This document shows positions 19,619 through 57,092 of a stretch of DNA of 64,000 nucleotides, piece after piece; position 1 is the first letter of the stretch, and each line of letters starts with the position of its first letter. Source of the stretch: Chloroflexota bacterium (GTDB taxonomy: Bacteria; Chloroflexota; Anaerolineae; Aggregatilineales; Phototrophicaceae); NCBI GenBank assembly GCA_016223085.1, contig JACRPS010000003.1, forward strand, positions 1,050,274 through 1,114,273. The letters run 5' to 3'. The notes below the pieces were generated by a model. That model worked only from the letters and a program-made list of their open reading frames with translations, was not told where the DNA came from and did no database searches. A program made the translations under genes and the position numbers.

Positions 19619-19622
19619 GATG

Positions 19623-21002
19623 TCACTCTCCAATAATCGGGCTGGCGGGTTCGTTAGCCGCTTCTTCCGACCCGCGCACGAACGAAAAACGCGGTTCGGA
19701 CTGTGCCGACGACCCGTAGACGCTGCCGTAAAACCCTTCGATGCGACGAACCGCCTGGCGGCTCCAGTCCAGCAGGTGTTCCAGATACTCCGGCTTATCC
19801 TCGGTGAGCTGTCGCACCCACCGCGTCGCCAGTTTGACGTGCGTCAGTTCGTCCGCCTGGAGATAATCCGACAGCTCCGCGATGCGGTCATAGCCGCGCT
19901 GTTCGGCCTGTTCGCGCCACTGGCGCAGCGTACTCATCAGGTTGGCTTCCGCCCAACTATTGGTGACGGAGATGCGCCGCAGCGGGTCGTCCTCGTTCTG
20001 CATCCACCACCAGGCCAGCGGCCAGGGGCCATAACCGAGCGTCGCGCCCAGTTCTTCTTCACACGCTTTGGCGACGATTTCGATGTGCCGCGCTTCGTCC
20101 CACATCTGATGCGCCAGTTCCATCCGCATTTCCCAGGGCAGTTCGGGGCATTCCGCCAGCATTTTGCCCATGCGGTCGGTCGTTTCGACTTCGCCGTACA
20201 GCAGTTGGTGGAACTTGTGGCGGAAGCCTTCCAGCGACCACTCGTCTTCGGCAGAATACGCCCGCTTAAAATCGTCGGGATTGTCCGAGAACCAGAACGG
20301 CGCTTCCACCACCGAATGTTCCAGCGGCGGGCAGCGTTTGGTATAACGATAGGCGCGGGTACTCAGGCGCAGCCGTTTGGCGGGTTTATCCTCGGCGCGG
20401 GCGCTGTGAAACGTCAGCCAGTGCGACTCGATGCCCTGTCCGGTCACGCCGCCACATTCGACCAGCCGCGTTTCCAGATCGGCCTGCACTTCGATGGCCC
20501 GGCGGCGTTCGTCCGCCGTTTTTGCCAGTGTTTCCAGCACCGCCTGCCCCCAGGCGACGTGTGATTGCCCCATCGCGGCCAACTGCCGCAGCAGGCGCAC
20601 GGTCGGCGTATCGGTCAGCGGGTCGGTCGCGTCGGCATGATACACGTAGGTGCTGACGAGGTGCGGCTCCAGCACGCGGTAAACGGCCACCAGCCGTTCC
20701 AGCGTCGTCGGCAGATTCCAGATGTACTCACACAGCCTGCCGAAGGCTTCCGTCGCCGGTTCCTGGCTGTCGCGCCCGGAGCGAAGCTGTTCCAGCCGTT
20801 CCCCCAGCAGGTCAGCCGCCTGCGCATGGTCATAGACGTGGTAGCCAAACGTCGCCTTGTAGGCGATCTGCGGCGTGGTATGGCACCAGCCGCCGAGCAT
20901 TTCCATCAGTTGAATTTCCAGGTAACGGTAATTGGCAAGGCGCTGCGCGTTTTCCCGCACGGTAAAGCGCCCGCCAAATTCGCGCCGGTCTACGATTGGC
21001 AT
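19623..21002 (-). CDS. ferritin-like di-iron protein (DUF455-like)
   Basis: 459 residues. The second half holds a clear di-iron four-helix pattern: Glu in YGEVETTDRM (about 271-273), DEARHIE (302-308), Glu in SWAEANLM (352) and DELTHVK (384-390), i.e. two ExxH motifs. The first half (ENAQRLANYRYLEIQLMEML, YDHAQAADLLGERL, GQSHVAWGQ) looks like a second helical bundle with less complete ligands. DUF455/MiaE-like members are thought to be oxygen- or hydroxylation-related. Lying directly before a URO-D/MtaA-like gene, it may oxidise a carbohydrate or aglycone, but no substrate can be read from sequence. Confidence 0.65.
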   Translation of the reverse strand: MPIVDRREFGGRFTVRENAQRLANYRYLEIQLMEMLGGWCHTTPQIAYKATFGYHVYDHAQAADLLGERLEQLRSGRDSQEPATEAFGRLCEYIWNLPTTLERLVAVYRVLEPHLVSTYVYHADATDPLTDTPTVRLLRQLAAMGQSHVAWGQAVLETLAKTADERRRAIEVQADLETRLVECGGVTGQGIESHWLTFHSARAEDKPAKRLRLSTRAYRYTKRCPPLEHSVVEAPFWFSDNPDDFKRAYSAEDEWSLEGFRHKFHQLLYGEVETTDRMGKMLAECPELPWEMRMELAHQMWDEARHIEIVAKACEEELGATLGYGPWPLAWWWMQNEDDPLRRISVTNSWAEANLMSTLRQWREQAEQRGYDRIAELSDYLQADELTHVKLATRWVRQLTEDKPEYLEHLLDWSRQAVRRIEGFYGSVYGSSAQSEPRFSFVRGSEEAANEPASPIIGE

Positions 21003-21084: not shown

Positions 21085-24000
21085 CTACTCAAGCTGGAAC
21101 GTAAACTGCGGATACGGCACAAGCTGCGGCGCGCCGGCCAGTCCCGATGGGCGCGGCGTGGCTTCCAGCAGGTTGACCAGTGTATTGGCGACCACCAGTT
21201 CCAGTACGTTGTCGCCCAGCTGCAACAGCTCGGTCACTTCCACCGTGTACGGCGTCCACAGCCGTATCCCGGCAGTCTGGCCGTTGACGCGCACTTCCAG
21301 CGCGTCGTCAAACAGGCGCGGTTCGAGAAACACCCGCTGCCCGGCGAACGCCGCCGGAACATCAAAACGCAGGCGATAGAGGCCGCGCCCGGAGAAAAAC
21401 GGATAACCCTGCGCGGTCCAGTCGTCGGGCTGCACCGTCCGGCGCGGTTCGACCAGCGTATAACTACTGTCCCGGCTTTCCAGCGCGAAGTCGCCCATCA
21501 GCTTCAGCAGGTCAAGCAGACCGTCGGTGGCGTTGGTCACAACCAGCCGCAGCGCGATCAGGTTGTCGCCCGGGCGAATGTAGGGCGTGATGTCTACCGC
21601 TTTCATCTGGGCGTCTATCGCGCTGCGCTCCGGCGTGGAGTCGACGCGCAGGCCGTTGACAAACACCTGCCACTCCGACCCGGCGAATCCGTCCACGATC
21701 AGATCGAAGCGCGGCGGCACGTACCCGGCGGTGAACGCCGCGCGATACCAGACCGGAATCGGATACGGCCTATCCGGCTCGGCGGGTAGCTGGTATGACC
21801 ACGCGCCGGGCACCATCGGCAGCCAGCCGGACGTGTCGGCGTCCGCTGCCGAGTACTTCTCCGGCGGCGCGCCGTCGGCCTCGTCCGTCACCATCCACTG
21901 GCCCATTACCAGCGCGTTGGTGCTCTGCGGTTCAAACTCCCATTCCCCGTTTAGCTCAAGTGGGTCAGTAAGCGGCTGGTAGTCGCTTTCAAAATCGCGC
22001 CCGTTCAGGTTAACAAAGCCGCGTTCGACGCGCCCATAGCCGGTGATTGCCTGATCCGTGAAACGCTCAATTGTCAGGTTGGTCCGGCTGATCAGACCGT
22101 CGCTGGCGGGCTGCGTCAGCACAAACGCCGACCCGACCGGCGGCAGTTCGATCTCAAAGCGCGTCCGCCCGGCTTCGATCTGCACCGGCGCGATCAACTG
22201 CTGCTCGCCGGTGGAGGGATTCCACAGGAAGGGCTGCACTTCCCCGGTCAGCGTGACCGAAGCGACCTGAACGCTGCCGGTTGAGTTAACGAGGAAATAA
22301 ATATCCCGGTTGTCGTTGACGCGGTGCAGGTAAAACACTTCCGGGTTATCAATCGTCACGTCTGGCGGCAGCAGCGCCCGCAGCGCAGCTTCAACCGCCG
22401 CCATCACCGCCTGCCGTTCCGCGCTGACCTCGGTGGTGATGTCCTGCCGCGTTCCGCCCTCCGGCGCGAAGAAGTAGCGGGTATCATCGCCGTTGGGTTC
22501 AACCACAAACAGCGGACTCTCACTGCGCCCCGGCGTGCCGAGGAACTGCTGCAGGCGCGCCGGAAGCTGGCGGAACAGGCCGTAAGACCGCAGGAAGGCG
22601 GTTTTGCCCGCGCCGCGCTCCTGGGTAATCAGATCAAGATCGGTCTGCCGGAGATAGTCGCGCTGCGCGGCAGTTGGCTCGACACCGAACAGCCTTTGAA
22701 TGCGGTCGGAGATGTCCACCAGCCCTCTATCGGCAAAGGCGCGGTCGGGCAGGAACACCACGCCCAGCGCGCGGCCTCCGGCGCTGACAAACGCTTCCAG
22801 CCGTTCCAGCGTTTCGATCCTGAGATGGGTCATCGGCGGCAGAATGAGGAGTTCGTAAGCCTCGTTGTGCACTCTGATCTGCCCGCCGGATATATCCGCC
22901 CCTGCCAGCACGTCCTCGTCCAGATAATCGTAATCGTAGTGCGCGCGCAGCAGCAGGTCGGTCAGCGCGTTGAAGTCGTTGACGGTACGTTCCGCCAGCG
23001 GCGTGTTCGCCTGTGGGGTGAAGTTCGCCATCAGCGCGTTCAACGGCCACAGCACCGCCACCTTGGCGACGTGCCGCCCGCCGGACAGCAGGTGACTCAG
23101 ACGGCTGACGTACTCGGAGAACGCACCGTAATAGCTCCACCAGGGATACTGGTAAAACATGGATGGCGGCCAGTCGCGCTTGCGCGGCCCTTCCAGGGTA
23201 TAGTGGAAGCCGTGCGGGTTGAGCAGATTCACCCCCAGCACGTATTCCCAGTCGGTAATCCACTTCATGCGCTGCATCGTCGCGTCCATGAAGATGCCGC
23301 CGAAGGACTCGCACAGCAGGCGCGGGCTGCCATAGTGGTGCGCCGCCGAACTGCCCAGTTTCATGGCGACGTGTTCGTCAGGGCGGTCACGGTTGCCGAT
23401 AAACGGGTAGAGATGGTCAACGCCGGTCACGTCCAGATGGCGGTAATGTTTAAACGCATTGCCTTCGACGCGGATCAGCCGCCGCAGCCATTCTTCGTAG
23501 AGCAGGTGGCCGGTGAACAGCACGCTGCGCTGCTGGCACCACTCATGAATCTGCCGGTAATAGGCATCGCTGTAGAAGTCGGTCAGCGTGTTGTAGAAGT
23601 CGTAGCGGACGCGGGCGCTGTCCGGCGAGATGTCAAAAAACAGGTGCGGCAGGCAGGGGCGCAGGTTGTAACCGTTGCGCTGCTGGAAGCGCCGCAGCAT
23701 GTCCTTCGTCCAGGGCACAATCGGGTTGTCGCCGGCGGTAACATAATAGTGCATGGCCGGTTCGTCGGTGTAAAAGCCAAGCATCTGCGACGACAGATTG
23801 TTACCGACGGCGCGCGCGTAGGGTTCGTAGCCCAGGCGCAGGAATTCCGCCGTTGCTTCGGGGTTCAGCGCGTCTATGTAGTAGTCGGCTTCTTTTTCGA
23901 CGATGAACATGATGCGCCAGTTGCCGGGCGGCGCCTGCCAGGGGATAACGTTCTCAAACGACAGATTGGGCGTCAGGTCTACGATTTGCCCCTCGCTGCC

Positions 24001-24465
24001 GATCGCAAACGCGGCCAGCGGGCGCGACCGTTCAAAGTCGTTATAACGGCTGTCCGCGCCGGTCATGTAGGTGAACCAGGGGCCGCGCATCGGGAAATTC
24101 AGGCACTCGATGTATTTCTGCGTCAGGTCAGGCCGCGCTTGCAGCACGCGCTTGTTCGCTGTGCCGGAAGGCCAGTTCATCTCGTCGTAAATCCAGGTTT
24201 GCAGGCCGATCTTTCTGGCTTCCTCGACGGCGAAGGCGATTCGTTCCAGGTACCTGTCGCCGATATACGGCATTTCCAGCCCGTAACGCGCGTGCAGGAT
24301 GATGCCCGGCATACCCTTGTCGCGGAACTCGCGCAGTTGGTAGCGCATCTCATCGGGGTCAAGTTCGCCGTTCAAGAACCAGAACGGCAGGATGCCATAT
24401 TCGCGCGGTGGGCGCTGGAAATTATCAAGGGTGACAGGCCGTTCCGGCCAGGGTTTAGGCTGCAT
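21085..24465 (-). CDS. large glycoside hydrolase, GH106-like
   Basis: 1126 residues from ATG 24465 (GGAGTC upstream). N-terminal barrel: YGILPFWFLNGELDPDEMRY, GIILHARYGLEMPY and IYDEMNWPSGTANK (about 20-120) are the signature blocks of GH106-type alpha-L-rhamnosidases and relatives. Around 450-560 is an amidotransferase-like region (YELLILPPMTHLRIETLERLEAFVSAGG). The C-terminal ~350 residues hold two jelly-roll sugar-binding modules (LNGEWEFEP..., FVNGLRVDSTPE, LEVRVNGQTAGIRLW). No signal peptide is seen, so it may act on imported oligosaccharides. Rhamnosidase activity on pectin side chains would fit the apiose genes nearby, but the catalytic residues were not checked against a structure. 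Confidence 0.7.
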   Translation of the reverse strand: MQPKPWPERPVTLDNFQRPPREYGILPFWFLNGELDPDEMRYQLREFRDKGMPGIILHARYGLEMPYIGDRYLERIAFAVEEARKIGLQTWIYDEMNWPSGTANKRVLQARPDLTQKYIECLNFPMRGPWFTYMTGADSRYNDFERSRPLAAFAIGSEGQIVDLTPNLSFENVIPWQAPPGNWRIMFIVEKEADYYIDALNPEATAEFLRLGYEPYARAVGNNLSSQMLGFYTDEPAMHYYVTAGDNPIVPWTKDMLRRFQQRNGYNLRPCLPHLFFDISPDSARVRYDFYNTLTDFYSDAYYRQIHEWCQQRSVLFTGHLLYEEWLRRLIRVEGNAFKHYRHLDVTGVDHLYPFIGNRDRPDEHVAMKLGSSAAHHYGSPRLLCESFGGIFMDATMQRMKWITDWEYVLGVNLLNPHGFHYTLEGPRKRDWPPSMFYQYPWWSYYGAFSEYVSRLSHLLSGGRHVAKVAVLWPLNALMANFTPQANTPLAERTVNDFNALTDLLLRAHYDYDYLDEDVLAGADISGGQIRVHNEAYELLILPPMTHLRIETLERLEAFVSAGGRALGVVFLPDRAFADRGLVDISDRIQRLFGVEPTAAQRDYLRQTDLDLITQERGAGKTAFLRSYGLFRQLPARLQQFLGTPGRSESPLFVVEPNGDDTRYFFAPEGGTRQDITTEVSAERQAVMAAVEAALRALLPPDVTIDNPEVFYLHRVNDNRDIYFLVNSTGSVQVASVTLTGEVQPFLWNPSTGEQQLIAPVQIEAGRTRFEIELPPVGSAFVLTQPASDGLISRTNLTIERFTDQAITGYGRVERGFVNLNGRDFESDYQPLTDPLELNGEWEFEPQSTNALVMGQWMVTDEADGAPPEKYSAADADTSGWLPMVPGAWSYQLPAEPDRPYPIPVWYRAAFTAGYVPPRFDLIVDGFAGSEWQVFVNGLRVDSTPERSAIDAQMKAVDITPYIRPGDNLIALRLVVTNATDGLLDLLKLMGDFALESRDSSYTLVEPRRTVQPDDWTAQGYPFFSGRGLYRLRFDVPAAFAGQRVFLEPRLFDDALEVRVNGQTAGIRLWTPYTVEVTELLQLGDNVLELVVANTLVNLLEATPRPSGLAGAPQLVPYPQFTFQLE

Positions 24466-24512
24466 CGTCAAAAAAGACTCCTGAATTCAATCGTCGAAAA
24501 ATGGATTTGTTT

Positions 24513-32326: not shown

Positions 32327-33685
32327 CTATCCACCCTCGCGGATTTTGACGAAGTAATCGGCCACGCCGTTCTGACCGCCCTTGAGCGAGATTTCCAGCC
32401 CGTCGAAGGCCGGGTTGTTGGAACTGGCGCGGCACAGCGGCGCACCGGGCGCAATCGGCACGATCACTTCCAGCGCGTAGATGCCAAGCTGCTTCGACGT
32501 GTAGCCGCAGGTATCACCGCCGGCGACGCAGGCGCGTTTCAGGCCGGTTTTTTCCAGCAGGTCGCGCAGGATGAGTCCCTGCTGCGTCCCTAACCGACTG
32601 CCGACCGTTTGCGGGTCGAGGCCGATGGACTGCATGTACTGTTTGGTCTGTTCAACTGCCGGGTCATCCGGGCCAGGCGCCGAATACAGCAGCGGGCGGC
32701 GCCCCTAATTCAGCACATCCAGCGCCTGCGCGACGGCTTTGGCACGGGCAGCGTCCGCCTGCTGCGGGTCCACCAGACAAGGCGCATCCAGCCGGATGCC
32801 GACGAAGCCGCGTTCGAGGGCGTAGTCAATCTGTTCGGCGGTGGGCGGCGCAGCGCTGCCGGACACAACGACTAACTGCTCCACCCGCCCCGGCGATTGC
32901 AGCGCGTCCGGTTTCGCCACCACGCCGACCTTCTGCCAGTGACTGGTCAGCGCGTATTCCAGCCCGGACGAGCCGACGATAAACACGGGCTTCTCGCCCC
33001 GCAAATTCCAGACCACACGCCCGATGTGCGCCAGATGGCGCTGGTCAAAGGTGTCAAAAAACACAATTTCGGTGCCGTCGTCCACCAGCTTCTTAAAGCG
33101 CGCGTCAATCTGCTCGTCGCTTTCTTCCATGTGCCAGATGTCAATCAGCCCCATGCTGCGCATTGTCTGCCTGCCCAGATGCAGGCGCAGGTCACTTTCG
33201 TTCATGGGGGTGATCGGGTGTTTGCTCATGGTGGGATGGCGGTCGAGGCGGTAGGTCACGTCGCCGACGCGGGCAAACAGATTGCCGAAGATCATGTATC
33301 GCCGCAGCACCGGCGCGCCCACGATCAGCGGTACTACCGGCGGGTCAAACACGTCGCAGCCGATGTCAATCGCGTGGCCGATGCTGCCGACGGTTGGCGA
33401 CGAATCGAAGGTTGAGCAGATTTTGTAATGCACAAACGGCGCGCCCAACGCCTTCAGCGCCCGGAACTTCGGATACAGTTCCGCGTCCATCTGCGCCGGG
33501 GACATGGACCGGCTGACGCCAGCCACGCCGACGGCGCGCACATTGGCAAAGCGCCCGGTTAGCTGTTCCGGCGTCGGCGGTTCGAGAAACAGCACCGTTG
33601 GCACGCCGTTGATTTGCAGCGACTCCATCACGTCGGTTGAGCCGGTGAAGTCGTCGCCATAAAAGGTTAATAACAGATCGTTCAT
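32327..33685 (-). pseudogene. oiaK: 3-oxo-isoapionate kinase (DUF1537 family) with in-frame amber codon
   Basis: From ATG 33685 the frame encodes LLLTFYGDDFTGSTDVMESL, the substrate-domain opening of four-carbon acid sugar kinases, to residue 326. Codon 327 (32707-32705) is TAG, after which the same frame continues GRRPLLYSAPGPDD...GLILRDLLEKTGLKRACVAGGDTCGY...LEISLKGGQ, the ATP-binding domain with its glycine-rich motif, to the true end at 32327. Without read-through the kinase loses its nucleotide site. In D-apiose loci the DUF1537 member OiaK phosphorylates 3-oxo-isoapionate for OiaX, and here oiaX lies 53 bases upstream on the same strand. Identity rests on family plus context. Confidence 0.72.
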
Positions 33686-33731: not shown

Positions 33732-33742
33732 CATGTCCCTAC
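33732..33742. repeat. half copy of the GTAGGG palindrome supplying oiaX stop
   Basis: CATGTCCCTAC remains of a right arm; its CTA at 33739-33741 is read on the minus strand as the TAG that ends oiaX. No left arm is visible. Confidence 0.6.
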
Positions 33743-35010
33743 GCCGTTGCCGTTTTTTTGCCAAATTTGTCGAGCGCCTGCCGCAGCGCCGGATGATCGG
33801 CGGCGTAGTCGTCCAGCGATAGACCGCGCACCGCCGCTTCCCATGCCTGTTTGAGCGACTCCACGCCGGCAGCCGGGCCGCCCGGATGCCCCTGAATGCC
33901 GCCGCCGGCGATGTACATAAAATCCGCCGTACCGGTCAGCCGGTAGGTATCCGGCAACTGCCCCGCCCACATGCCAGAACCGATGACGGGCAGCACGCGG
34001 TCGGCGGGCGCGAACAGCGGCGTCAAACACTGGCTGACCGCGTTCACGACCGAGTCGTCCGACTCCCAGTATTTGTTGCGGATACCGTTCACATGCAGTT
34101 GGTCAACGCCGACCAGCCGCCAGAATTTGTTGTAGGCATTAAACTCCAGCCCCAGCAGCGGGCAGCGGGTCAACATTCCCCAGCCGTTGCGGTGGGCATG
34201 AATCGGCAGTGAACACCGTTGGCGTAAATAGCGCACGCCGGCATAACCGACCTGATTGATGTTGACCATCACGCACGTGCCGCCGGCCTGCACCACCGCA
34301 TCATGGCGGCGCACCATCTGTTCCGGGTCGTCGCTGCTGACGTTGAAGGCGTACATCACCGGTTTGCCGGTGCGGGCGGCCACGTCGTGAATCACAGCCA
34401 TCACGGCGGCCACGCGCTGTTCCACCGTCGAATACGGCGGATTGGTCATCTTCTCGTCGTCCTTGATGAAGTCCACGCCCGCTTCTGCCAGCGTGCGGAC
34501 GATGGCGGCAGTCTGTTCCGGCAGCAGGCCGACATTCGGTTTGATGATCGAGGCGATTACGGGACGGTCGTGGACGTTCGTCAGGCGGCGCGTGCCGGCC
34601 ACGCCAAACTGCGGGCCGGGGTGCGCGTCGGCGAAGGCGGGCGGCAGCTCGATGTCCACCAGCCGGATGCCGGACAGCTCTTTGAGTTCCATCACCCCGC
34701 CCGCGACGACGGCCAGCAGGGTTGCCAGTTCCGTGCCGGTCACGTCCAGCGGGACGGTTATCACCACTTCGGCGCGGTGGTGCGGCTGGCTGACGGCCTC
34801 ACGGTAGGGCAGCGTTGGCAATTCGACCGTTTCCAGCGCGCGGACGGAGTCGACGGCAGCCGAAAAGCGCCGTTTGAGCGCCTCGGTTTCGCCCGGCACT
34901 CTGGTGAACGTCCCGGCGGACATGGCAGCAGCGACCATGCCGGCGGCCTGTTCGGGCGGATAGGGTGACTCGATCAGATAGGTGCAGCGGATTATGTCAG
35001 CGGTGGTCAT
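33739..35010 (-). CDS. oiaX: RuBisCO-like protein, 3-oxo-isoapionate-4-phosphate transcarboxylase/hydrolase
   Basis: 423 residues from ATG 35010 (GGGGGG upstream; an upstream frame to 35049 is not supported). RuBisCO large-subunit fold: SIIKPNVGL (Lys157; the second Lys of KPK is Asn), FIKDDEKMTNPPYS (carbamate Lys183 with Asp185 and Glu186), LPIHAHRNGWGML (His271/273), loop NGIRNKYWES and AGGGIQGHPGG phosphate loop. The changes rule out CO2 fixation and place it among RuBisCO-like proteins. The neighbours apnL and oiaK point to OiaX, which splits 3-oxo-isoapionate 4-phosphate into 3-phosphoglycerate and glycolate. Other RuBisCO-like roles (methionine salvage, tetronate) lack supporting neighbours. 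Confidence 0.8.
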   Translation of the reverse strand: MTTADIIRCTYLIESPYPPEQAAGMVAAAMSAGTFTRVPGETEALKRRFSAAVDSVRALETVELPTLPYREAVSQPHHRAEVVITVPLDVTGTELATLLAVVAGGVMELKELSGIRLVDIELPPAFADAHPGPQFGVAGTRRLTNVHDRPVIASIIKPNVGLLPEQTAAIVRTLAEAGVDFIKDDEKMTNPPYSTVEQRVAAVMAVIHDVAARTGKPVMYAFNVSSDDPEQMVRRHDAVVQAGGTCVMVNINQVGYAGVRYLRQRCSLPIHAHRNGWGMLTRCPLLGLEFNAYNKFWRLVGVDQLHVNGIRNKYWESDDSVVNAVSQCLTPLFAPADRVLPVIGSGMWAGQLPDTYRLTGTADFMYIAGGGIQGHPGGPAAGVESLKQAWEAAVRGLSLDDYAADHPALRQALDKFGKKTATA

Positions 35011-35034
35011 AGGCTTGTCATTCCCCCCTATGAG

Positions 35035-35062
35035 GTAGGGACACGACATATCGTGTCCCTAC
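35035..35062. repeat. GTAGGG palindrome with one mismatched pair
   Basis: GTAGGGACACGACA faces TATCGTGTCCCTAC, in the 57-base gap between apnL and oiaX. Confidence 0.93.
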
Positions 35063-35067
35063 GTCGG

Positions 35068-36996
35068 TTATCCATCCAGCCGCGCGACCGCGAACGGCGG
35101 CAGCGTCAGGCGCAGGCCGTTAGCATCGGCAGTAACAGTCTGCCCCGGCTGCGTGCGGTAGCTGTCCGGCGCGGACATGGCGGACTCAGCGTTATTCGCG
35201 TCCAGCAGCTTGAGCGACCACGTTCCTGGCACGCCAGGCAGGCGCACGGTCTGTTCATACGGCGTGTAGTTCGCCAGCAGCAGCCGCGTCTGATTGCCCT
35301 GCCGCAGCGCCAGGCCGTTCACACGCAGGATGTCGCTGGATTGGCTGGCGATCACGTCGCCGCCACGAAACTCGCCCACGTCCGCCAGCACGTGATACAT
35401 GGGATACACACCGCCAGGGACGGAATGGAACTTCTCCGGCACGGGCGACCCCGCCGCCGTTTCCATCACGCCGCGCCAGCCGGTCGTTTCGTAATATGTG
35501 ACCGAGGCCGCGCCGCTTTCGGCCAGATACCTGATGCTGCCCAGCGTCCAGCCCGCGCCGTACAGCGACGGCTGCCGCGCGTCCACCTGCGGCGGCAGTT
35601 CGCCGGGCGGTGTGGCCGGTTCCGGGCCCGTCGCGTTGGGATTCCAGCGCATCTTAAATGTCACCGGGCTAACCATGACCGGCTTGCCGCCGGAAAAGGC
35701 ACGTGCGCTTTTGACGGTTTCCGCCTGCACCGCCAGTGTTTCCGTCACCGAAGCGTTGTCTACGGCGTGAACGGTGCTGCACAGCGAATAGGTGACAAAA
35801 TCCACCACGTCCAGCGGCGGGCGCTCGCGGTTCAGTTCAGTGAAAAAGGCGTCCGTACCCGCGCCAACCGGCGCGTGTTCCGCCCAGGCGCCAAGCGCCT
35901 GCCGCGCCAGCGTCACCCACCGGGCGGTCGTGGATTTCTCGCACCGGTGGAACACCAGCCACCGGCTGATGGCCGGCTGCACCTCGTCCAGCAGCGCGTG
36001 GAAGGCCGCGAGTTCGGCTTCCGCCGCGTCGGTCAGGAACAGCGCCACTTCCAGCCCCCCGCCAATCGCTGCCGTCTCCAGTGCCGCCTGCCGGAACTTC
36101 GCCGCGTAATCCGCCGTGCCGAAACGCACGTCCACCCGCAGGTGCGCCAGATGCAGCGCTTTCAGCCGTTCGAGTTCGGTGGCAGACAGCGACGCACCGT
36201 GACTGGCAACGCCGAGACCCAGCGGCGGCAGCGGCGTTGTATGTTGAAACAGGGTGAACGTCAGATCGTCAGCGGCGCTCTCAATACGCGGCGGCGCGCC
36301 GATCAGCCGCAGCGTGATCGTCTGGCTGATCTTCGTCCCGGCCTCGACCGTCACCGGGAACGGTAGCCCCAGCGGCGTGCAGTAGGTCTTAAACGAAGCG
36401 TCCGTCCAGTTGCGCTGGTCTTCCATCTCAAACGTGTCACCGTCCATGCGGACTTCGACGCGCACGCCCGGCAGAGCTTCATGGGTGACGGCGCGCAGAT
36501 CGTAAAATGGCTGGTGAGGTGAGATTTCGACGGGGAACTGGCTGTCGTAGCGGTCGCCGGACACGGTTTCGATGGTGCATGGCTGCCCGGCGCAGTCCAT
36601 CGGATGCAGCACGCAGAAGCCGATGCGGTTGCGCTTGAAGGTGGACAGCGCCGCACCGTCCATGCGGAAGGTGATCGTGCCATCCGCCGCGCCGGTGATG
36701 TCGCCGATCCAGTCAAACTGCACCGCGCCGCGCCGGTGTTCGGAACGGTAGCGGATGTGGAATGAATCCGGCTGCCGGTCCATCTGCACGTCATGGAGCT
36801 GCCCTGGCACCGTGCCCCAGTTATGGTCGCGCACCGCAGCATAAATCTGGTGCAGCACTTCCCGGCTGCCCAGCCGAATGTAACGCAGGCTGCCCGCTTC
36901 GTAAGTGAGTGTCAGTGGGCCGGCGCACAGGCTAAGGGATTCAGGGGGTGGCGTGCGGCTACCATCAAAAACAGGATGATAGGCTGAAGGTTGCAT
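35068..36996 (-). CDS. apnL: D-apionate lactonase
   Basis: 642 residues, no signal peptide. The blocks LTLTYEAGSLRYIRLGSREV, IYAAVRDHNWGT, RNRIGFCVLHPMD, FPVEISPHQPFYDLRA and FEMEDQRNWTDASFKTYC fit what I recall of the ApnL lactonase family, which opens D-apionolactone to D-apionate. A barrel-like central region (about 270-520) and a beta domain at the end (LLLANYTPYEQTVRLPG) follow. First gene of the minus-strand group apnL-oiaX-oiaK, divergent from the GntR regulator. Assignment is by motif memory and by the matching neighbours. Confidence 0.75.
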   Translation of the reverse strand: MQPSAYHPVFDGSRTPPPESLSLCAGPLTLTYEAGSLRYIRLGSREVLHQIYAAVRDHNWGTVPGQLHDVQMDRQPDSFHIRYRSEHRRGAVQFDWIGDITGAADGTITFRMDGAALSTFKRNRIGFCVLHPMDCAGQPCTIETVSGDRYDSQFPVEISPHQPFYDLRAVTHEALPGVRVEVRMDGDTFEMEDQRNWTDASFKTYCTPLGLPFPVTVEAGTKISQTITLRLIGAPPRIESAADDLTFTLFQHTTPLPPLGLGVASHGASLSATELERLKALHLAHLRVDVRFGTADYAAKFRQAALETAAIGGGLEVALFLTDAAEAELAAFHALLDEVQPAISRWLVFHRCEKSTTARWVTLARQALGAWAEHAPVGAGTDAFFTELNRERPPLDVVDFVTYSLCSTVHAVDNASVTETLAVQAETVKSARAFSGGKPVMVSPVTFKMRWNPNATGPEPATPPGELPPQVDARQPSLYGAGWTLGSIRYLAESGAASVTYYETTGWRGVMETAAGSPVPEKFHSVPGGVYPMYHVLADVGEFRGGDVIASQSSDILRVNGLALRQGNQTRLLLANYTPYEQTVRLPGVPGTWSLKLLDANNAESAMSAPDSYRTQPGQTVTADANGLRLTLPPFAVARLDG

Positions 36997-37149: not shown

Positions 37150-37878
37150 ATGAAAGTTTTTTCCCAGATTCGACCGATTAACCTGCGCGAGCAGGTAGCG
37201 GACCAGATTCGCACCGCCATCATCGAAGGCCGCCTGAAACCGAACGACCATATCGCCGAGGCGGCGCTGACACAGCAGCTTGGCGTCAGCCGGACGCCCG
37301 TCCGCGAAGCCCTGATTATCCTCGAACGTGAATCCCTGATTGTCTCGGTCCCCAATCGCGGCTGCTTTGTACGCGCCTTTAACGAAGATGATGTGGAAGC
37401 GCTCTTTTCCATGCGCACGACGCTGGAAAACTTCGCCGCCGAACTCATCATTGACCGGCTGAGCGATACCGACATCGCCCACCTGCGCGACCTGATTGAC
37501 CTCCAGCGCCGCCACATTGACCGCGCCGACTTCAAGGAGGTGCGCAGCGTGGACATGGCCTTCCACCAGTATCTGATTAACCTCAGCCAGCATCCGATGC
37601 TGATGCGGAACTGGCAGGAAATCGTGGCGCAGATCGCCGCCGTGCTGTATCTGCGCGCCGAAGCGGAACCTGATTACGACGAATATCTGGCGATCCGCGA
37701 CCATGAATGTATCGTGGACGCCTATCATGCCCGCAATCTGGAGCGGGTCAAGCAGGAAAACCGGCGCATCAACGAGCGTGTCGCCGGCGAATGCAAGGCC
37801 GCCGTCCGGCGGCTGCAAAAGCGGCGCAACGGCAAACCGCGCCGTACCAGACAGCGGCTTCAACATCCGGTTGGATGA
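37150..37878 (+). CDS. GntR/FCD-family regulator of the apiose locus
   Basis: 242 residues. Winged helix about 10-75 (NLREQVADQIRTAIIEGRLK, EAALTQQLGVSRTPVREALI), FCD domain with VDMAFHQYLINLSQHPML and HECIVDAYHARNLERVKQE carrying the His metal/ligand positions. Divergent from apnL and directly before the importer genes, so it probably senses an apionate-pathway intermediate. The operator-like TGTATACA on its own promoter fits autoregulation. Confidence 0.9.
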   Translation: MKVFSQIRPINLREQVADQIRTAIIEGRLKPNDHIAEAALTQQLGVSRTPVREALIILERESLIVSVPNRGCFVRAFNEDDVEALFSMRTTLENFAAELIIDRLSDTDIAHLRDLIDLQRRHIDRADFKEVRSVDMAFHQYLINLSQHPMLMRNWQEIVAQIAAVLYLRAEAEPDYDEYLAIRDHECIVDAYHARNLERVKQENRRINERVAGECKAAVRRLQKRRNGKPRRTRQRLQHPVG

Positions 37879-37990: not shown

Positions 37991-39025
37991 ATGTTCAATA
38001 AGTTGAATCGCTACAGTCTGGTGCTGGTCGTGCTGGCGCTGCTGCTGACGATGGTTGTCACCGTCAGCGCGCAGGACGGCATGACAATCTGCTTCGGCTT
38101 CCAGGACCTGGAAACGGAATTCTGGGTGGCCGGTCACAAGGCGATCACCGAAACGCTGCGCGGGCAGGGCATCGAGGTGCTGGAATACAACGCCAATGAG
38201 AACCCGGACCGCCAACTAGAACAGGTGCGCGAGTGCATCGCCCAGGGCGTGGACGGCATCATCATCATCCCGCAGGATGGTGACAGCGCCGTGACCATCA
38301 TCGGCGAAGCCCAGGCCGCCGACATCCCGATCGCGGTTTTCAACCGCCCGCCGAATGATCGCAGCAAGGGCATCACGGTCGTGGCCGACAACGTGAGCGC
38401 CACCGAACAGGCCGTTGAATTTATCGCCCAGAAGGCGCTGGCGAAGTGGGAAGCTACCGGCACGCCGATCAAGCCGCTGATCGTCGTCGGCGCGCTGCAG
38501 GACACCAACGCCATTGGCCGTCGTGAAGGTTTCTTCAACGTCATCAACCGCTACAACGAAAAGTACCCCGGCATGTTCGCCGAGCCGATTGAAGTGGCAA
38601 GCGAATGGGACGCCGCGACCGCGCTGGCGAACCTGGAAGCCGCCATCACTGCCAACCCGGATGTGGACTTCCTGTACACATCGTCGGACTTCCTGTTCCC
38701 CACCATCCGTTCGGTGCTGGAACCGCGCGGCAAGTGGGTGCCGATGGGTGACAAGAATCACGTGCTGATGGCCGGCCTCGACGGCGACGCGACCGCCTGT
38801 ATGCTGATCGAGCAGGGTTACGTGGACGCCACCGGCGTGCAGAACCTGTTCTACGAAGCCGAACTGACGATGAACCGCCTGCTCCAGGCCATCGAAGAGG
38901 GCGACACGCAGCCAAATGAAGTGCTGCTCGACCCCGGCTTCGCGCTGACCGCCGGCAACTTCATCTGGCAGAGCGACGACATGTGGGGCTGCAAGCTCTA
39001 TCGTGAAGGCTTCCTCGATCAATAG
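37991..39025 (+). CDS. ribose-type sugar-binding protein of the apiose locus
   Basis: 344 residues. Signal peptide FNKLNRYSLVLVVLALLLTMVVTVSA, then a two-lobe sugar-binding fold (Peripla_BP_4): ICFGFQDLETEFWVAGHKA, CIAQGVDGIIIIPQDGD, DIPIAVFNRPP, ITVVADNVSATEQAV, VGALQDTNAIGRREGF, MAGLDGDATACMLIEQGYV. Delivers the sugar to the permeases at 39149 and 41859. Co-location with apionate genes suggests D-apiose or a related branched sugar as ligand. Ends with TAG. Confidence 0.9.
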   Translation: MFNKLNRYSLVLVVLALLLTMVVTVSAQDGMTICFGFQDLETEFWVAGHKAITETLRGQGIEVLEYNANENPDRQLEQVRECIAQGVDGIIIIPQDGDSAVTIIGEAQAADIPIAVFNRPPNDRSKGITVVADNVSATEQAVEFIAQKALAKWEATGTPIKPLIVVGALQDTNAIGRREGFFNVINRYNEKYPGMFAEPIEVASEWDAATALANLEAAITANPDVDFLYTSSDFLFPTIRSVLEPRGKWVPMGDKNHVLMAGLDGDATACMLIEQGYVDATGVQNLFYEAELTMNRLLQAIEEGDTQPNEVLLDPGFALTAGNFIWQSDDMWGCKLYREGFLDQ

Positions 39026-39148: not shown

Positions 39149-40336
39149 GTGTCCACGATAGATGAACGGTTAACCCCCACCGTCAGCCTGGCGCCCGCCA
39201 CCCCGGTTGAAACCGCGCCGCGCCGCGCCGCGCGTCCGGTGCTGGGCTTCTTACAGCGGGTGCTGCTGTCTGACTACTTTATTCTGTACCTGACCATAAT
39301 CTTTTTTGTGGTTGCTTCCGCTTCCTTCCCGACGCTGTCCGCGCCGGGGAATATCAGCAACCAGCTATCCAACATGTGGCCGCTGCTCGCCGTCGCGGTC
39401 GGCCAGACGTTTGTGTTGATTCTGGGCGGCATTGACCTGTCGCAAACCTCGATTATGGCGATCACCAGCGTGGTCGGCGCGCTGTTTATTACGCAAACGC
39501 TCGATGCTCCCACCTTCGACAAAAGCCCGCTGTGGGGCACGCTCATTTCCGACAAGGGCGGCATCCTCGCCGGCAACCCCAACGCTGTTTTAATCGGCGT
39601 GATCGTGATGCTGCTGCTGGGCACGCTGATCGGTCTGTGGAACGGCTTCGCCATCACGCGCTTCAAGATGGCGCCGTTTATGGTGACGCTCGTCTCCATG
39701 ATCTTCTTCAGCGCGCTGGCGCTGTGGCTGACCGCGTCGCGCAATGTCTCCGGTCTGCCGGAGGACTTCCTGCTGCTGGGCAAAGGGGACATCGTATCGG
39801 TTTACTTTGGACCGAAGCTGACGCCGGAAATCGCCCGGCGCGACATCCTGCCGTTGATTACGTATCCGTTTATGATCGCGGTGGGGCTGGCGGTGGCCGG
39901 GCAGTTTATCCTCAGCCGGACGGTGTTTGGCCGCCAGATGTTCTCCATCGGCACCAACCGCCGCGCGTCGGAAGTCTCCGGCGTGCCGGGCAGCCGCGTG
40001 ATTATGCTGGTGTACGCCTTCAGCGGTTTCTGCGCGGCAGTCTCTGCCATCCTGTACTCGGCCCGGCTGGAAATTGGCCGCCCGTCACTGGGGGACGGCC
40101 TGCTGATGGACATTGTAGGCGCAGCGGTCATCGGCGGCACCAGCCTGTTCGGCGGCAAGGGTTCGATCAAGGGCACGTTCTTCGGCGTGGCGTTTTTTGT
40201 GCTGCTGCTGAACATCCTCAACGCCATGAAGCTGTCGCCGTTTGTGATTGACGCCACCAAAGGCATCGTCATCCTGATCGCCGCGCTGCTGGACATCACC
40301 CGCACCCGCCTGATTAACCGGGAGGCGCGTTCATGA
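39149..40336 (+). CDS. ribose-type ABC importer permease 1, apiose locus
   Basis: 395 residues from GTG 39149, longer than most RbsC relatives because of a ~45-residue proline/arginine-rich lead and an extra loop (TLDAPTFDKSPLWGTLISDKGG). Membrane core with VGQTFVLILGGIDLSQTS signature and SIGTNRRASEVSGVPGSRVIMLVYAF coupling loop. Its stop overlaps the ATPase start by 4 bases (ATGA at 40333). Confidence 0.9.
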   Translation: MSTIDERLTPTVSLAPATPVETAPRRAARPVLGFLQRVLLSDYFILYLTIIFFVVASASFPTLSAPGNISNQLSNMWPLLAVAVGQTFVLILGGIDLSQTSIMAITSVVGALFITQTLDAPTFDKSPLWGTLISDKGGILAGNPNAVLIGVIVMLLLGTLIGLWNGFAITRFKMAPFMVTLVSMIFFSALALWLTASRNVSGLPEDFLLLGKGDIVSVYFGPKLTPEIARRDILPLITYPFMIAVGLAVAGQFILSRTVFGRQMFSIGTNRRASEVSGVPGSRVIMLVYAFSGFCAAVSAILYSARLEIGRPSLGDGLLMDIVGAAVIGGTSLFGGKGSIKGTFFGVAFFVLLLNILNAMKLSPFVIDATKGIVILIAALLDITRTRLINREARS

Positions 40337-41862
40337 CCGCCGTGCTAGAAACGCAGAACCTCAACAAATCGTTCTTCGGCATTGCTGCCGTGAAGGACGT
40401 GAGCATCAAGGTCAACGCGGGTGAAGTGCTGGGGCTGATCGGGCAGAACGGCGCGGGCAAAAGCACGCTGATGAACCTGATCGGCGGCGTGGTGCAGCCG
40501 GACAGTGGTACGATGCTGTACCAGGGCAAACCCTACGCGCCGCGCAGCCCGGCGGACGCGACCCACGCGCGCATCGCCTTCATCCACCAGGAACTGAACC
40601 TGTTCACCAACCTGACGATTGCCGAAAACATCTTCATCGAAGGTTTCCCGACCAGGGGGCGCGGGCCGTTCCGGGTGATTGACCGCGCCGCCGTGCGCCG
40701 CCGCACCCGCGAAGTGCTGGAGGCGGTAGGCCTCGATCTGTCGCCGGACATGCAGGTGGACCGCATGTCGCCCGGCGAGCGGCAGTTGGCGGAAATCGCA
40801 AAGGCGCTGTATCTCGACGCCTCGCTTATCATTCTCGACGAACCGACCACCTCGCTGACCAACCGCGAGACGGAAAAGCTGTTTGACATCATGCGCCGCC
40901 TGCGCGAACAGGGCAAGGCGCTGATCTACATCTCGCACATCCTGACCGACGTGCTGGCGGTATCCGACCAGATCGCGGTCATGCGCGACGGCCATCTGGT
41001 GACGCAGGAGCCGACGGCGAACTTTGACGTGAATCGCATGATCGCGCTGATGGTGGGGCGCAGCATCGAGCAGTTGTATCCGCCGCGCACGTCCGTTCCG
41101 AAAGACGAACCCCTGCTGGAAGTACGCGGTGTGTCGGCCAAAGGCATTGTTGAGGACGTAAATTTCGAAGTGTGCCGGGGCGAAGTCGTCGGCCTGTTCG
41201 GGTTAATGGGTTCCGGGCGCACCGAACTGGCGCGGATGCTGTTCGGGCTGGACTCGTTTGAGCGCGGCGAAATCGTAGTTAACGGCCAGGCCATCCGCCG
41301 CACGTCCGCGCGGTAGAGCATCCGCAACAATATCGCTTTTGTCACCGAAAACCGGCGCGAGGAAGGTCTGCTGATGAACATCAACATCGCGGACAACATC
41401 GCGCTGGTGTCGCTGCCGTCGTTCGCGTCGAAGATGACGCAGGTCATCCGCCAGCGCGACATGGTGACGTCGGCGGGACAGGTCGCCGGCCAGTTGCAGC
41501 TTAAAAGCGGCAACATCGTCGAGCAGCCGGCCAAGAGCCTGAGCGGCGGCAACCAGCAGAAAGTGGTGCTGGCGAAGTGGCTGCTGTCGAAGCCGTCGGT
41601 GTTTGTGATGGACGAGCCAACACGCGGCATTGACGTGGGCGCGAAGTACGAAATCTACAGCATCATTGACCAACTGGCAGCCAGCGGCAGCGGCGTGCTA
41701 TTCATCTCCTCCGAACTGGAAGAACTGATGGGCATGTGCGACCGGATTCTGGTGATGAGCCGGGGGGAAATCTTCGGCCACTTCACGCGGGAGGAATTCG
41801 ACCAGGAGGCTATCCTGCGGGCGGCCTTCCGTGAACATGGCAACGGGAGTAACGGCGCATGA
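40333..41862 (+). pseudogene. ribose-type ABC importer ATPase with in-frame amber codon
   Basis: The frame from ATG 40333 to TGA 41862 encodes a complete 509-codon RbsA-like protein except that codon 328 (41314-41316) is TAG. Before it: Walker A GQNGAGKST, signature MSPGERQLAEIAKAL, Walker B LIILDEPTTSL, and the second degenerate Walker A GLMGSGRTE. After it: NNIAFVTENRREEGLLMNIN, SLSGGNQQKVVLAKWL and VFVMDEPTRGIDVGAKYE. Relatives have an ordinary residue (often Glu or Ala) at this place. The truncated product lacks the second active site; a re-start at ATG 41374 would give a fragment. Read-through, point mutation and base-call error cannot be separated here. Confidence 0.88.
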
Positions 41863-42905
41863 ATGTCAGCATCCTGAAAACCAACCGCAGCGCGGCCAAC
41901 GGGCGAACGAATATCACCCAACTGCTGCTGAACAATTCGACCCTCATCCTGTTTGTGGCCGTGTTCCTGATCTTTGGCCTGTCGTCGCCCAAGCTGTTTG
42001 AAGGCAATAACCTGGTCAACAGCCTGATTAACATCATCAAGCAGGCGTCGTTCACCGGCATCATCGCCGTTGGTATGACGTTTGTGCTGCTAACCGGCGG
42101 CATTGACCTGTCGGTTGGCTCGAACATGTACCTGTCGTCGGTGGTGGCCGGCCTGCTGATGCGCCAGCAGGGCTTTGAAGTGCTGCCGGCGCTGCTGGCG
42201 GCGCTGGTGACGGGCACGCTGGTGGGCGCGTTTAACGCCGTCTGCGTCGTCAAGCTGAAGATCGTGCCGTTTATGGTCACGCTCGGCACACTGGTGGTGG
42301 CGCGCGGCATCGGCACGTTCCTGACCGACTCGAAGCAGATTGACTTCCCGCAGCGCATGTTGGACTTCGGGCAGATCCACGTCACCTTCGGCGCGATCCA
42401 GATTCAGATCGTGCCGATCATCGCCTTCTTCATCATCATTGCGCTGGCCTACATCATCCTAACGCGAACGCCTGTCGGGCGGCAGGTATACGCCGTTGGC
42501 AACGACATCGAAGTGGCGAAGAAGGCCGGTATCAACGCCGACCGCGTCACGGCGATGGTATACATCGTCTCCGGCTTCTGCGCGGCGCTGGCCGGGTTTA
42601 TCCTGATCGCGCAGATCGGGCGGCTCGACCGCAGCTTCGCGGAAGGCAAGGAGTTCGACGCGATTGCCGCGGCGGTGCTGGGCGGCACGAGTCTGTTCGG
42701 CGGCGTGGGCAACGTGCTGGGGACGGTCATCGGCGCGCTGCTGATCCAGATGGTGCAGTACATGCTCCAGTTCAACAACGTCAACCTGTATATCCAGCCG
42801 ATGGTGCGCGCGGCCATCATCTTTATCGCGGTGTTTTTTGACAGCCTGCGCGAGGCCAACCTCGCCAAGCTGAAACGGCGGTTTATCCGCCCCGTCGAAA
42901 GCTAA
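41859..42905 (+). CDS. ribose-type ABC importer permease 2, apiose locus
   Basis: 348 residues, start overlapping the ATPase stop (ATGA). RbsC-like core: ASFTGIIAVGMTFVLLTGGIDLSVGS at about 67-92 and AVGNDIEVAKKAGINADRVTAMVYIVSGF. The importer therefore has two different permeases, expected to form a heterodimer with 39149-40336. Confidence 0.9.
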   Translation: MNVSILKTNRSAANGRTNITQLLLNNSTLILFVAVFLIFGLSSPKLFEGNNLVNSLINIIKQASFTGIIAVGMTFVLLTGGIDLSVGSNMYLSSVVAGLLMRQQGFEVLPALLAALVTGTLVGAFNAVCVVKLKIVPFMVTLGTLVVARGIGTFLTDSKQIDFPQRMLDFGQIHVTFGAIQIQIVPIIAFFIIIALAYIILTRTPVGRQVYAVGNDIEVAKKAGINADRVTAMVYIVSGFCAALAGFILIAQIGRLDRSFAEGKEFDAIAAAVLGGTSLFGGVGNVLGTVIGALLIQMVQYMLQFNNVNLYIQPMVRAAIIFIAVFFDSLREANLAKLKRRFIRPVES

Positions 42906-43161: not shown

Positions 43162-44022
43162 ATGTTGAAGGTTGCTTTGATGGGCGCGGGCGGCAAAATG
43201 GGCTGCCGCATCACCGACAATCTGATGAAGATGCCGGACAAATACGACATGCGCTATGTCGAAGTCAGCGAGCCGGGCATTGCCAACCTTGCCAAGCGCG
43301 GCCTGAAGACGACGCCGCAGACGGAAGCGCTGGCCGACGCCGACGCCGTGATTCTGGCGCTGCCGGACAAGCTGATCGGCAGGATCACGCATGAAATCGT
43401 CCCGACGCTGCGCCCCGGCACGATGGTGATCGGCCTCGACCCGGCGGCAGCCTACGCCGAAGTGATGCCGGTGCGGGAAGACCTGACCTACTTCGTCAGC
43501 CACCCATGCCATCCACCCATGTTTAACGATGAAGTGACGGAAGAAGCCCGCACCGACTGGTTCGGCGGCGTGAAGGCCAAACACCACATCGTCAACGCGC
43601 TGTATCATGGCCCGGACAGCGATTACGAGAAGGGCAACCAGATCGCCCGCGATATGTACGCGCCGGTGATGACCTCGTTCCGCATCACCGTTGAGCAGAT
43701 GGCAATCCTCGAACCGGCGCTGGTGGAAACCTTCGCCGCGACCTGCATCAGCGCGATCAAGGAAGCGTATGACAAGGCGGTTGAGATGGGTGTACCGGCG
43801 GACGCCGCCTGGGAGTTCCTCAGCGGCCACGCGCGGATTGAGTTTGCCATCATCTTCGGCTTCTCTGGCTTCCCGTTCTCCGACGGCGCGAAACTGGCGA
43901 TTGCGCGCGCCTACGAGAAAATCTTCAAGCCGGACTGGAAAGAGCAGATCATGAACCTTGACGCGCTCAAGCAAAGCGTCCGGGAAATCACCGACAGCCT
44001 GAACCAGCCGGTGAAGGCGTAA
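43162..44022 (+). CDS. apnO: D-apionate oxidoisomerase
   Basis: 286 residues. Rossmann start KVALMGAGGKMGCRITDNLM (GAGGKMG at 8-14), then DADAVILALPDKLIGRI, and the family block TYFVSHPCHPPMFNDE (about 111-126) followed by WFGGVKAKHHIVNALYHGP and TVEQMAILEPALVETFAATC. This fits ApnO, an NAD-dependent enzyme with a 6-phosphogluconate-dehydrogenase-like C-terminus that oxidises and rearranges D-apionate to 3-oxo-isoapionate. Its neighbours (apnL, apsD, oiaC, oiaX) are exactly the pathway partners. Ribosome site CAGGAG precedes the ATG. Confidence 0.8.
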   Translation: MLKVALMGAGGKMGCRITDNLMKMPDKYDMRYVEVSEPGIANLAKRGLKTTPQTEALADADAVILALPDKLIGRITHEIVPTLRPGTMVIGLDPAAAYAEVMPVREDLTYFVSHPCHPPMFNDEVTEEARTDWFGGVKAKHHIVNALYHGPDSDYEKGNQIARDMYAPVMTSFRITVEQMAILEPALVETFAATCISAIKEAYDKAVEMGVPADAAWEFLSGHARIEFAIIFGFSGFPFSDGAKLAIARAYEKIFKPDWKEQIMNLDALKQSVREITDSLNQPVKA

Positions 44023-44060: not shown

Positions 44061-44079
44061 CCCACCAGGGACTTTGACC

Positions 44080-45153
44080 ATGCCCACCCTCTCACAACTG
44101 CGGCAGACGTTGGACGGCGCGGGCGAGTTGTATCACGTGCTGCCCTTGCAGGGCGACGCCTGCGCGCTAATCACACAGCGCGGCGCGCGCGTGCTGGGTC
44201 TGTTCCCCACGCCCGACGCCGACAACCTGCTGTGGACGAACGACGCGGCGCTGGAATCGGTCGAGAGCTTTCAGCAGTTTGTGGCTGAGGGCGGCTGGAA
44301 TCTGGGCGGCGAACGCTGCTGGATTGCGCCGGAGATTCAGTACAACGTGCGTGACCGCAGCGACTTCTGGGGTACGCTGTCCGTTCCTTCGGCAATAGAC
44401 CCTGGCAGCTACCGGATGGACGTGTCCGGCGCGGCGGTCACGTTCCAGCAGCAAATCAGCCTAAGCGCCTATAACACCGCCACTGGCACGAAGCAGCTTG
44501 ATGTGCGCCGCACCGTTCGTCCGATAGCGAACCCGCTGCGGGCGTATGACACGTTGCTACGTGGCGTCATCTATGCCGGTTACGAACAGACAGCCACGCT
44601 GGCCGAGTTAAACGATGCGCCGATACTCAGTGAAATCTGGAATCTGGTGCAGGTGAACGCCGGCGGCCACCTCATCATCCCCTGCGCGCCGGAGATTCGC
44701 GCCTCAGACTACTGCGGCGACGTGCCGGATAAAGCGCGGGCGGTGTGTTTCGGTGACGTGCCGCACCTGCGGCTGACCATCACCGGGCAGCGCCAGTACA
44801 AAATCGGCTATCAGGCGACCAGCATGACCGGGCGCATGGCCTACCATCACCGCCTGCCCGATGGCCGCGACTATCTGTTGGTTCGCAGTTTCTTCAACAA
44901 CCCGTCCAGCATCTATGCCGAAGAACCACCGGACCAACCGGGCGCGACCGGCCATTCCGTCCACGTTTACAATGACGGCGGGCAGTTCGGCGCGGGCGGC
45001 GTTGGCTTTGGCGAAATGGAATGCAGCGGCCAAACCATCGGCGGGCGCTCCGGGCGTTCTGGCAGCAGCGATACGTTCCTGCTGTGGGCGTACGTCGGCG
45101 CGCCGGAGGCCATCCGGCGGATCGTATACCTTTTGCTGGGAGTCAAGTTGTAG
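44080..45153 (+). CDS. galactose-mutarotase-fold protein of the apiose locus
   Basis: 357 residues from ATG 44080 (AGGGA upstream). Pattern DACALITQRGARVLGLFPTPDADNLLW at the start and ERCWIAPEIQYNVRDRSDFWG, VTFQQQISLSAYNTATGTKQ and LSEIWNLVQVNAGGHLIIP further on resemble aldose-epimerase-like beta-sandwich families (DUF6786/DUF4432 type), though I cannot fix the family. It lies between apnO and oiaC. A role in interconverting apiose anomers before oxidation is plausible; a second lactonase is another option. Its TAG stop (45151-45153) is the left end of the next palindrome. Confidence 0.55.
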   Translation: MPTLSQLRQTLDGAGELYHVLPLQGDACALITQRGARVLGLFPTPDADNLLWTNDAALESVESFQQFVAEGGWNLGGERCWIAPEIQYNVRDRSDFWGTLSVPSAIDPGSYRMDVSGAAVTFQQQISLSAYNTATGTKQLDVRRTVRPIANPLRAYDTLLRGVIYAGYEQTATLAELNDAPILSEIWNLVQVNAGGHLIIPCAPEIRASDYCGDVPDKARAVCFGDVPHLRLTITGQRQYKIGYQATSMTGRMAYHHRLPDGRDYLLVRSFFNNPSSIYAEEPPDQPGATGHSVHVYNDGGQFGAGGVGFGEMECSGQTIGGRSGRSGSSDTFLLWAYVGAPEAIRRIVYLLLGVKL

Positions 45154-45178
45154 GGGCGGGTTTCTAAACCCGCCCCTA
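45150..45178. repeat. GTAGGGGCGGGTTT palindrome overlapping a stop codon
   Basis: GTAGGGGCGGGTTT faces AAACCCGCCCCTA around CT; last base of the right arm changed. TAG at 45151-45153 ends the preceding gene. Confidence 0.94.
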
Positions 45179-45195
45179 TGTATGGAGACAACACC

Positions 45196-46014
45196 ATGAC
45201 CGTTTTAGGACTGGGTACGTATGGCGTCGCCTGGGCGATTGGCGTACCCGGCTACGAGCAGCCGAAAGCGCCGATGGATGCGTTCGGCCTGCTGCGTTTT
45301 GCCGATGATCTCGGCCTGCGGCTGGTGCAGATCGCGGACAATCTGCCGCTGCACACGCTGACCGACGAGCAGCGCCGCGACGTACGGGACGAAGCGCAAA
45401 AACGCGGCATCGCTATCGAAGTCGGCACGCGCGGCATCCAGACCGACCACCTGCGCCAGTACCTCGAAATCGCCAGATTCTTCAACTCACCGATTCTGCG
45501 CGTGGTGGTGGATACCAAAGACCATCACCCGTCGCCGGAAGAAGTCGTCAGCCTGATTCGCGTCGTGCTGCCGGAACTGGAAGCGGCGGGCATCACGCTG
45601 GCGATAGAGAACCACGACCGCTTTAAGGTCAACCAACTGGCCGGCATTATTCAGGCGCTGAACAGCCCGTATGTGGGCATCTGCCTCGACACAGTGAACT
45701 CGTTCGGGTCGCTGGAAGGGCCGGAAGTGGTGGTGGAAACGCTCGGCTGCCACGTGGTTAACCTGCACGTCAAGGAATTTGTCGTCAAACGCGCCGGCCA
45801 CGCGATGGGCTTTGAAATCACCGGGCGGCCTACCGGACAGGGCATGATGAACGTCCCCTGGCTGCTGGGCCGGCTGGACGGCTTCGGGCGCAGCTACAAC
45901 GCGATCATCGAAGCCTGGCTGCCGATGCAGATCACGATTGACGAAACGGTGGCGATGGAAGCGCGCTGGGCGCGTGAAAGCGTCACCTATTTACGACAGT
46001 TCATCAAGGAATAA
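45196..46014 (+). CDS. oiaC: 3-oxo-isoapionate decarboxylase (sugar-isomerase-like TIM barrel)
   Basis: 272 residues from ATG 45196, which has GGAG 8 bases upstream. Xylose-isomerase-like barrel with metal-site blocks LAIENHDRFK (Glu, about 140), GICLDTVNSFG (Asp, about 172), VVNLHVKEF (His, about 200) and AIIEAWLP (Glu, about 236); opening GLGTYGVAWAIGVPGY and RLVQIADNLPL. This fits OiaC, which removes CO2 from 3-oxo-isoapionate to give L-erythrulose. With oiaK broken, this would be the working outlet of the pathway. Erythrulose kinase genes are not in the window. Confidence 0.72.
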   Translation: MTVLGLGTYGVAWAIGVPGYEQPKAPMDAFGLLRFADDLGLRLVQIADNLPLHTLTDEQRRDVRDEAQKRGIAIEVGTRGIQTDHLRQYLEIARFFNSPILRVVVDTKDHHPSPEEVVSLIRVVLPELEAAGITLAIENHDRFKVNQLAGIIQALNSPYVGICLDTVNSFGSLEGPEVVVETLGCHVVNLHVKEFVVKRAGHAMGFEITGRPTGQGMMNVPWLLGRLDGFGRSYNAIIEAWLPMQITIDETVAMEARWARESVTYLRQFIKE

Positions 46015-47085: not shown

Positions 47086-47111
47086 TAGGGACACGGCATG
47101 CCGTGTCCCTA
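47086..47111. repeat. TAGGG palindrome, left G changed
   Basis: TAGGGACACGGCA with exact complement; first base of the left arm is A instead of G. Between apsD and the URO-D-like gene. Confidence 0.93.
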
Positions 47112-47154
47112 CAACCAAAATGGTTTGTGGATAAATGACCTGCGAAAAGAGTTG

Positions 47155-57059: not shown

Positions 57060-57092
57060 ATGTCCGGCGCTCTCGCTAAACCGGGATATTCG

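Follow-up and report, generated by a model that had tools for sequence, protein, structure and literature searches.

Within the window, by which we mean the whole 64,000-nucleotide stretch of DNA from an environmental Chloroflexota-type genome that was analysed, an oiaK gene on the minus strand, a kinase gene for the plant sugar D-apionate, is interrupted by an amber codon. The frame opens with an ATG (33685) and encodes 326 residues (32708–33685) before it meets an in-frame TAG at codon 327 (32705–32707, that is 32707–32705 as read on the minus strand), and then continues for another 125 codons (32327–32704) to its natural stop, which is itself a TAG (32329–32327, minus strand). The part before the amber comprises the sugar-binding domain (PF07005, E = 1e-55) and the first third of the nucleotide-binding domain, with the match to Pfam NBD_C confined to profile positions 1–54, and the 125 residues after it match NBD_C on their own over positions 60–168 (E = 8e-19); SBD_N and NBD_C are thus both encoded and the TAG splits NBD_C. 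An open run of 125 codons alone has a ∼2% chance of occurring at the local G+C, and it is because of the homology to NBD_C rather than the length of the run that we read the frame after the TAG as coding and not as a chance one. The GGDT glycine motif (389–392), which is invariant in the alignment, lies beyond the TAG and is kept, and termination at codon 327 deprives the protein of over half of its ATP-binding domain, this motif included. These results bear out the preliminary description, which had placed an amber codon at position 327 of oiaK and a conserved open frame of 125 codons with the ATP-binding glycine motif behind it. When read through, the frame matches the NCBIfam OiaK model NF042436 over positions 8–451 of 451 with 529 bits, which is below the curated equivalog cut-off of 700 but makes OiaK the best family by far over the full profile. 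As judged from the sequence, the name OiaK, which stands for a DUF1537-type four-carbon acid sugar kinase expected to phosphorylate 3-oxo-isoapionate, is therefore owed to the best match and to a gene neighbourhood in which OiaX, ApnO and ApnL are present, and not to the standard of NF042436 itself. The 6.03-Mb genome assembly holds one SBD_N (PF07005) kinase gene, and no second copy of an oiaK-type kinase was found in it.

On the minus strand oiaK is accompanied by an oiaX-like gene for a RuBisCO-like protein (33739–35049; 3-oxo-isoapionate-4-phosphate decarboxylase, NF042437, 583 bits, cut-off 700), which is intact and constrained and adjoins oiaK in relatives, and by an apnL-like D-apionate lactonase gene (35068–36996; NF049900, 333 bits, cut-off 750), which is without stops and 72% identical to that of the related genome G007. 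The plus strand carries genes for a GntR-family regulator of the cluster (37150–37878; 74% identical in G007, where an apparent stop is the natural end of that gene), a sugar ABC transporter substrate-binding protein (37991–39025; 89% identical in G007), a sugar ABC transporter permease (39149–40336) and a second such permease (41859–42905; family taken from its position and a reading of its translation). They are joined by an apnO-like gene that is a candidate for the D-apionate oxidoisomerase (43162–44022; PF16896) and by a Gfo/Idh/MocA dehydrogenase gene (46018–47070; Pfam) that its position makes a D-apiose dehydrogenase candidate. In Halalkalicoccus and Microvirga an apnO-like gene likewise stands beside the kinase and RuBisCO-like genes oiaK and oiaX. 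A gene set with the same named functions accompanies growth on D-apiose in a Rhodobacteraceae strain (PMC11747546, which also gives the D-apionate degradation gene set and its EC numbers), and the OiaK/OiaX branch belongs to the D-apionate pathway of Carter et al. 2018 (cited in PMC6302742). Our locus resembles this branch in that candidates for the lactonase, the oxidoisomerase, the kinase and the RuBisCO-like decarboxylase lie near one another in a single cluster. It differs from the branch in scores that do not reach the NCBIfam equivalog cut-offs and in the break in its kinase frame.

Several other genes of this region deserve mention. A 359-codon frame (44074–45153) between the apnO-like gene and a TIM-barrel gene has no Pfam, NCBIfam or PDB match. 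A GH106-type alpha-L-rhamnosidase-like gene lies near the apionate cluster (21085–24471), and together with a GH32 gene (57060–58601) it suggests a plant-polysaccharide region. Three URO-D/MtaA-like methyltransferase-type genes (9155–11107, 18452–19633 and 47098–48228), one of them fused to B12-binding domains, are also found in this sugar-catabolism region.

The comparison with related genomes that had been proposed earlier shows that all full-length oiaK relatives found are intact. A stop is absent from 12 of 12 such relatives from the genus and family (54–85% identity), and from nine relatives in public genomes (48–85% identity), which partly overlap with the 12 and of which the named ones are Chloroflexota/Anaerolineae and others. 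At codon 327 these relatives have D, N, A, K, T, Q, E, V or R (nine kinds of residue), and in the predicted structure (mean pLDDT 81) the codon falls in the turn between helix 310–326 and strand 330–334 of the ATP-binding domain. Since the site is variable among relatives and lies in a turn, no special residue is implied: codon 327 is a variable surface turn that tolerates nearly any residue. OiaK and OiaX occur together in seven genomes of the genus, the source genome included. In a further congener, G016, nothing is left of oiaK but its final 41 codons (84% identical DNA, L021:1504–1626) between unrelated genes, a remnant that by its sequence we take to be a deletion scar, indicating that loss of the pathway does occur in the genus.

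When the entire 1.47-Mb contig was scanned for coding potential, a single further TAG within a clearly coding frame came to light, at 41314–41316 and thus 8.6 kb from the TAG of oiaK. It is codon 328 of 509 in a plus-strand sugar ABC transporter ATPase gene with two ABC_tran domains (40333–41862), where both nearest relatives have CAG, and no orthologue in the relatives has a stop at this site. The orthologue clusters with oiaK and oiaX in seven genomes (G007, G009, G012, G013, G014, G015 and G022), which points to the ATPase as a conserved partner of the pathway and, by synteny, likely part of its uptake system. This second TAG had been missed by the preliminary description. For many of the other in-frame stops on its list, the scan had picked up either a neighbouring gene that lies in the same frame and starts directly behind the stop, or a shadow frame.

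Compared with its nearest relatives oiaK has a dN/dS of about 0.14–0.23, which is alike before and after the TAG. On the branch of the source genome, oiaK has accumulated 8 amino-acid and 11 synonymous changes after the TAG versus 15 and 33 before it (p = 0.41), and the ATPase gene 4 and 20 after versus 15 and 25 before. Free drift can thus have lasted no longer than about a third of the branch in the oiaK remainder, which is a rough bound, and no longer than about 4% of it in the ATPase remainder. Of the two marks of a pseudogene considered here, a premature stop in a gene that is intact in relatives is therefore present, and relaxed constraint after the stop is seen in neither oiaK nor the ATPase gene, although the latter is not required of a nonsense pseudogene whose stop is very young. 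The constraint after the TAGs rules out an old pseudogene in both cases and, with no relaxation after either TAG, marks both changes as young; the nonsense change in oiaK is young, or ineffective, or not real.

How often genes are broken in this genome was surveyed in 2.51 Mb (five contigs), using coding potential and, for those checked, Pfam, an approach that may overlook short or diverged cases. Four credible nonsense-broken genes were found, namely oiaK and the ATPase gene (TAG) and two others (both TAA), a GNAT acetyltransferase gene (L170:7869-8459, C12:1368261) and a maltose-acetyltransferase-like gene (L122:2157-3335, C12:402466), both of which are probable nonsense alleles. About 4% of trials with four randomly placed sites have a pair no more than 8.6 kb apart, and the chance that at least one of the other three broken genes lies inside the 13.7-kb cluster is 1.6%. 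Two ambers in one pathway are thus mildly unlikely by chance (1.6–4%), and their clustering mildly favours a common cause, a relaxed need for the pathway. The survey also met in-frame TGA codons in genes for a DsbA-like thioredoxin (TGA-P-A-C; L105:17695-18429, C12:77959) and an AhpD-like CMD protein (C-H-Y-TGA; L136:1618-2250, C12:681918), both probable selenoproteins because a tRNA-Sec with anticodon TCA is found at C12:479614.

The best reading of these data, and one that we hold somewhat more probable than all others combined, is that the source strain carries very recent loss-of-function alleles in the uptake and kinase steps of the pathway, that is young amber mutations in oiaK and in the gene for the associated ABC transporter ATPase. 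Ribosomes would stop at codon 327 of oiaK and release a 326-residue protein with most of its nucleotide-binding domain gone, which would have no kinase activity, and stopping at codon 328 of the ATPase gene would leave a broken second ATPase domain. That the TAGs are really in the DNA of the cell, that they are not read through and that the D-apiose/D-apionate pathway is being lost are steps that we infer from the sequence.

The chief rival is that the TAGs are a sequence artefact or reflect a strain mixture, with a consensus error or a minor allele having entered a metagenome-type assembly while the genes of the cell are intact. It owes this place to the fact that sequence cannot separate a very young mutation from an error, and the unrelaxed constraint downstream of both stops is what it would predict. 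The assembly consists of 37 contigs, contains N gaps and has an estimated contamination of 4.4%, two other genes have single TAA interruptions, and the remaining genes of the cluster look intact with oiaX not relaxed, an observation that counts against the loss of the pathway. On the other hand, four nonsense-broken genes in 2.51 Mb is a low rate, two of the four fall in one pathway, and random errors would not pick one cluster. We therefore regard an artefact as a serious but clearly less probable explanation than recent loss.

It is also conceivable that the ambers are read through by a near-cognate glutamine tRNA or a suppressor, which would give a kinase and an ATPase of full length, perhaps in smaller amounts. 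Constraint continues past both TAGs, both stops are in one pathway, and the nearest relatives have glutamine at the ATPase position, where a glutamine tRNA could supply it. However, none of the 43 tRNAs detected in the genome has a CUA anticodon, the genome encodes release factor 1 (RF1) and has no match to PylS over the model cut-off, and TAG is not avoided as a terminator, as it is the stop codon of 341 among the 1073 called genes that have 150 codons or more; relatives have no stop at either site, with sense codons at that of oiaK. A suppressor tRNA could have escaped the tRNA search, because the commonly present Arg-UCU, Thr-CGU and Glu-CUC tRNAs were not seen and the assembly is about 98% complete, but we consider this unlikely, and read-through as a whole is improbable. 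Taken together, the tRNAs, PylS, RF1, stop usage and the sense codons in relatives lead us to reject recoding of TAG. With pyrrolysine or TAG reassignment the locus shares an in-frame TAG followed by coding sequence, and it differs from such systems in that the TAG is not conserved at its site, no CUA tRNA or PylS was found and TAG is a common terminator. The sequence thus lends no support to a new genetic code and would fit an ordinary kind of gene loss. Still less probable is a variant in which the ambers are functional, kinase and uptake ATPase being made only via UAG read-through and the pathway throttled or switched by suppression with UAG otherwise a normal stop. Least probable of all are split genes, each yielding two assembling polypeptides with the second started at an internal ATG, as such ATGs do occur 24 codons after the TAG of oiaK and 20 after that of the ATPase gene and the downstream parts are conserved, but the one in oiaK is without a clear ribosome-binding site and a start there would omit strand 330–334 of the ATP-binding domain in the predicted structure, and no relative shows such a split.

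If the alleles are recent losses of function, the RuBisCO-like decarboxylase would be left without substrate unless a second candidate decarboxylase bypasses the kinase. This candidate is the product of the plus-strand gene at 45178–46014, a xylose-isomerase-like TIM barrel (PF01261) that we regard as a candidate for OiaC, the 3-oxo-isoapionate decarboxylase. Within the genus this gene and the apnO-like one are found together in 9 of 9 genomes, and G003 and G004 have both genes without OiaK/OiaX (the G003 assembly being incomplete), the pattern to be expected of an OiaC route. Searches with the protein returned no match in NCBIfam, which may contain no OiaC model, and a weak match only in PDB. 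Its plasmid relatives (33–34%) lie beside transketolase genes in apiose-transketolase-type clusters, a setting in which one would also expect a D-apiose isomerase. The earlier suggestion that OiaC could make the kinase dispensable is plausible from gene content, although a bypass leaves the TAG in the transporter ATPase gene unexplained. The same TAG qualifies the proposal of an early-stage loss of the OiaK/OiaX branch: a broken oiaK with a constrained remainder and intact relatives is consistent with it, but the damage is wider and not confined to this branch, because the transporter ATPase is also hit and oiaX is intact.

With its conserved genes, each with a single in-frame stop and intact relatives, and a pathway of patchy distribution, the locus resembles the unitary nonsense pseudogenes of bacterial catabolic operons, from which it differs in having two stops in one small cluster and frames that have not decayed. 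At this locus, automatic gene calling would yield a shortened kinase and an ATPase in two halves, and the true state of the pathway would go unnoticed. If the two alleles are real, a catabolic pathway would have been caught at the moment of its loss, its uptake and kinase steps hit before decay elsewhere, in a genus in which the pathway is patchy and one member, G016, has only 41 codons of oiaK left.
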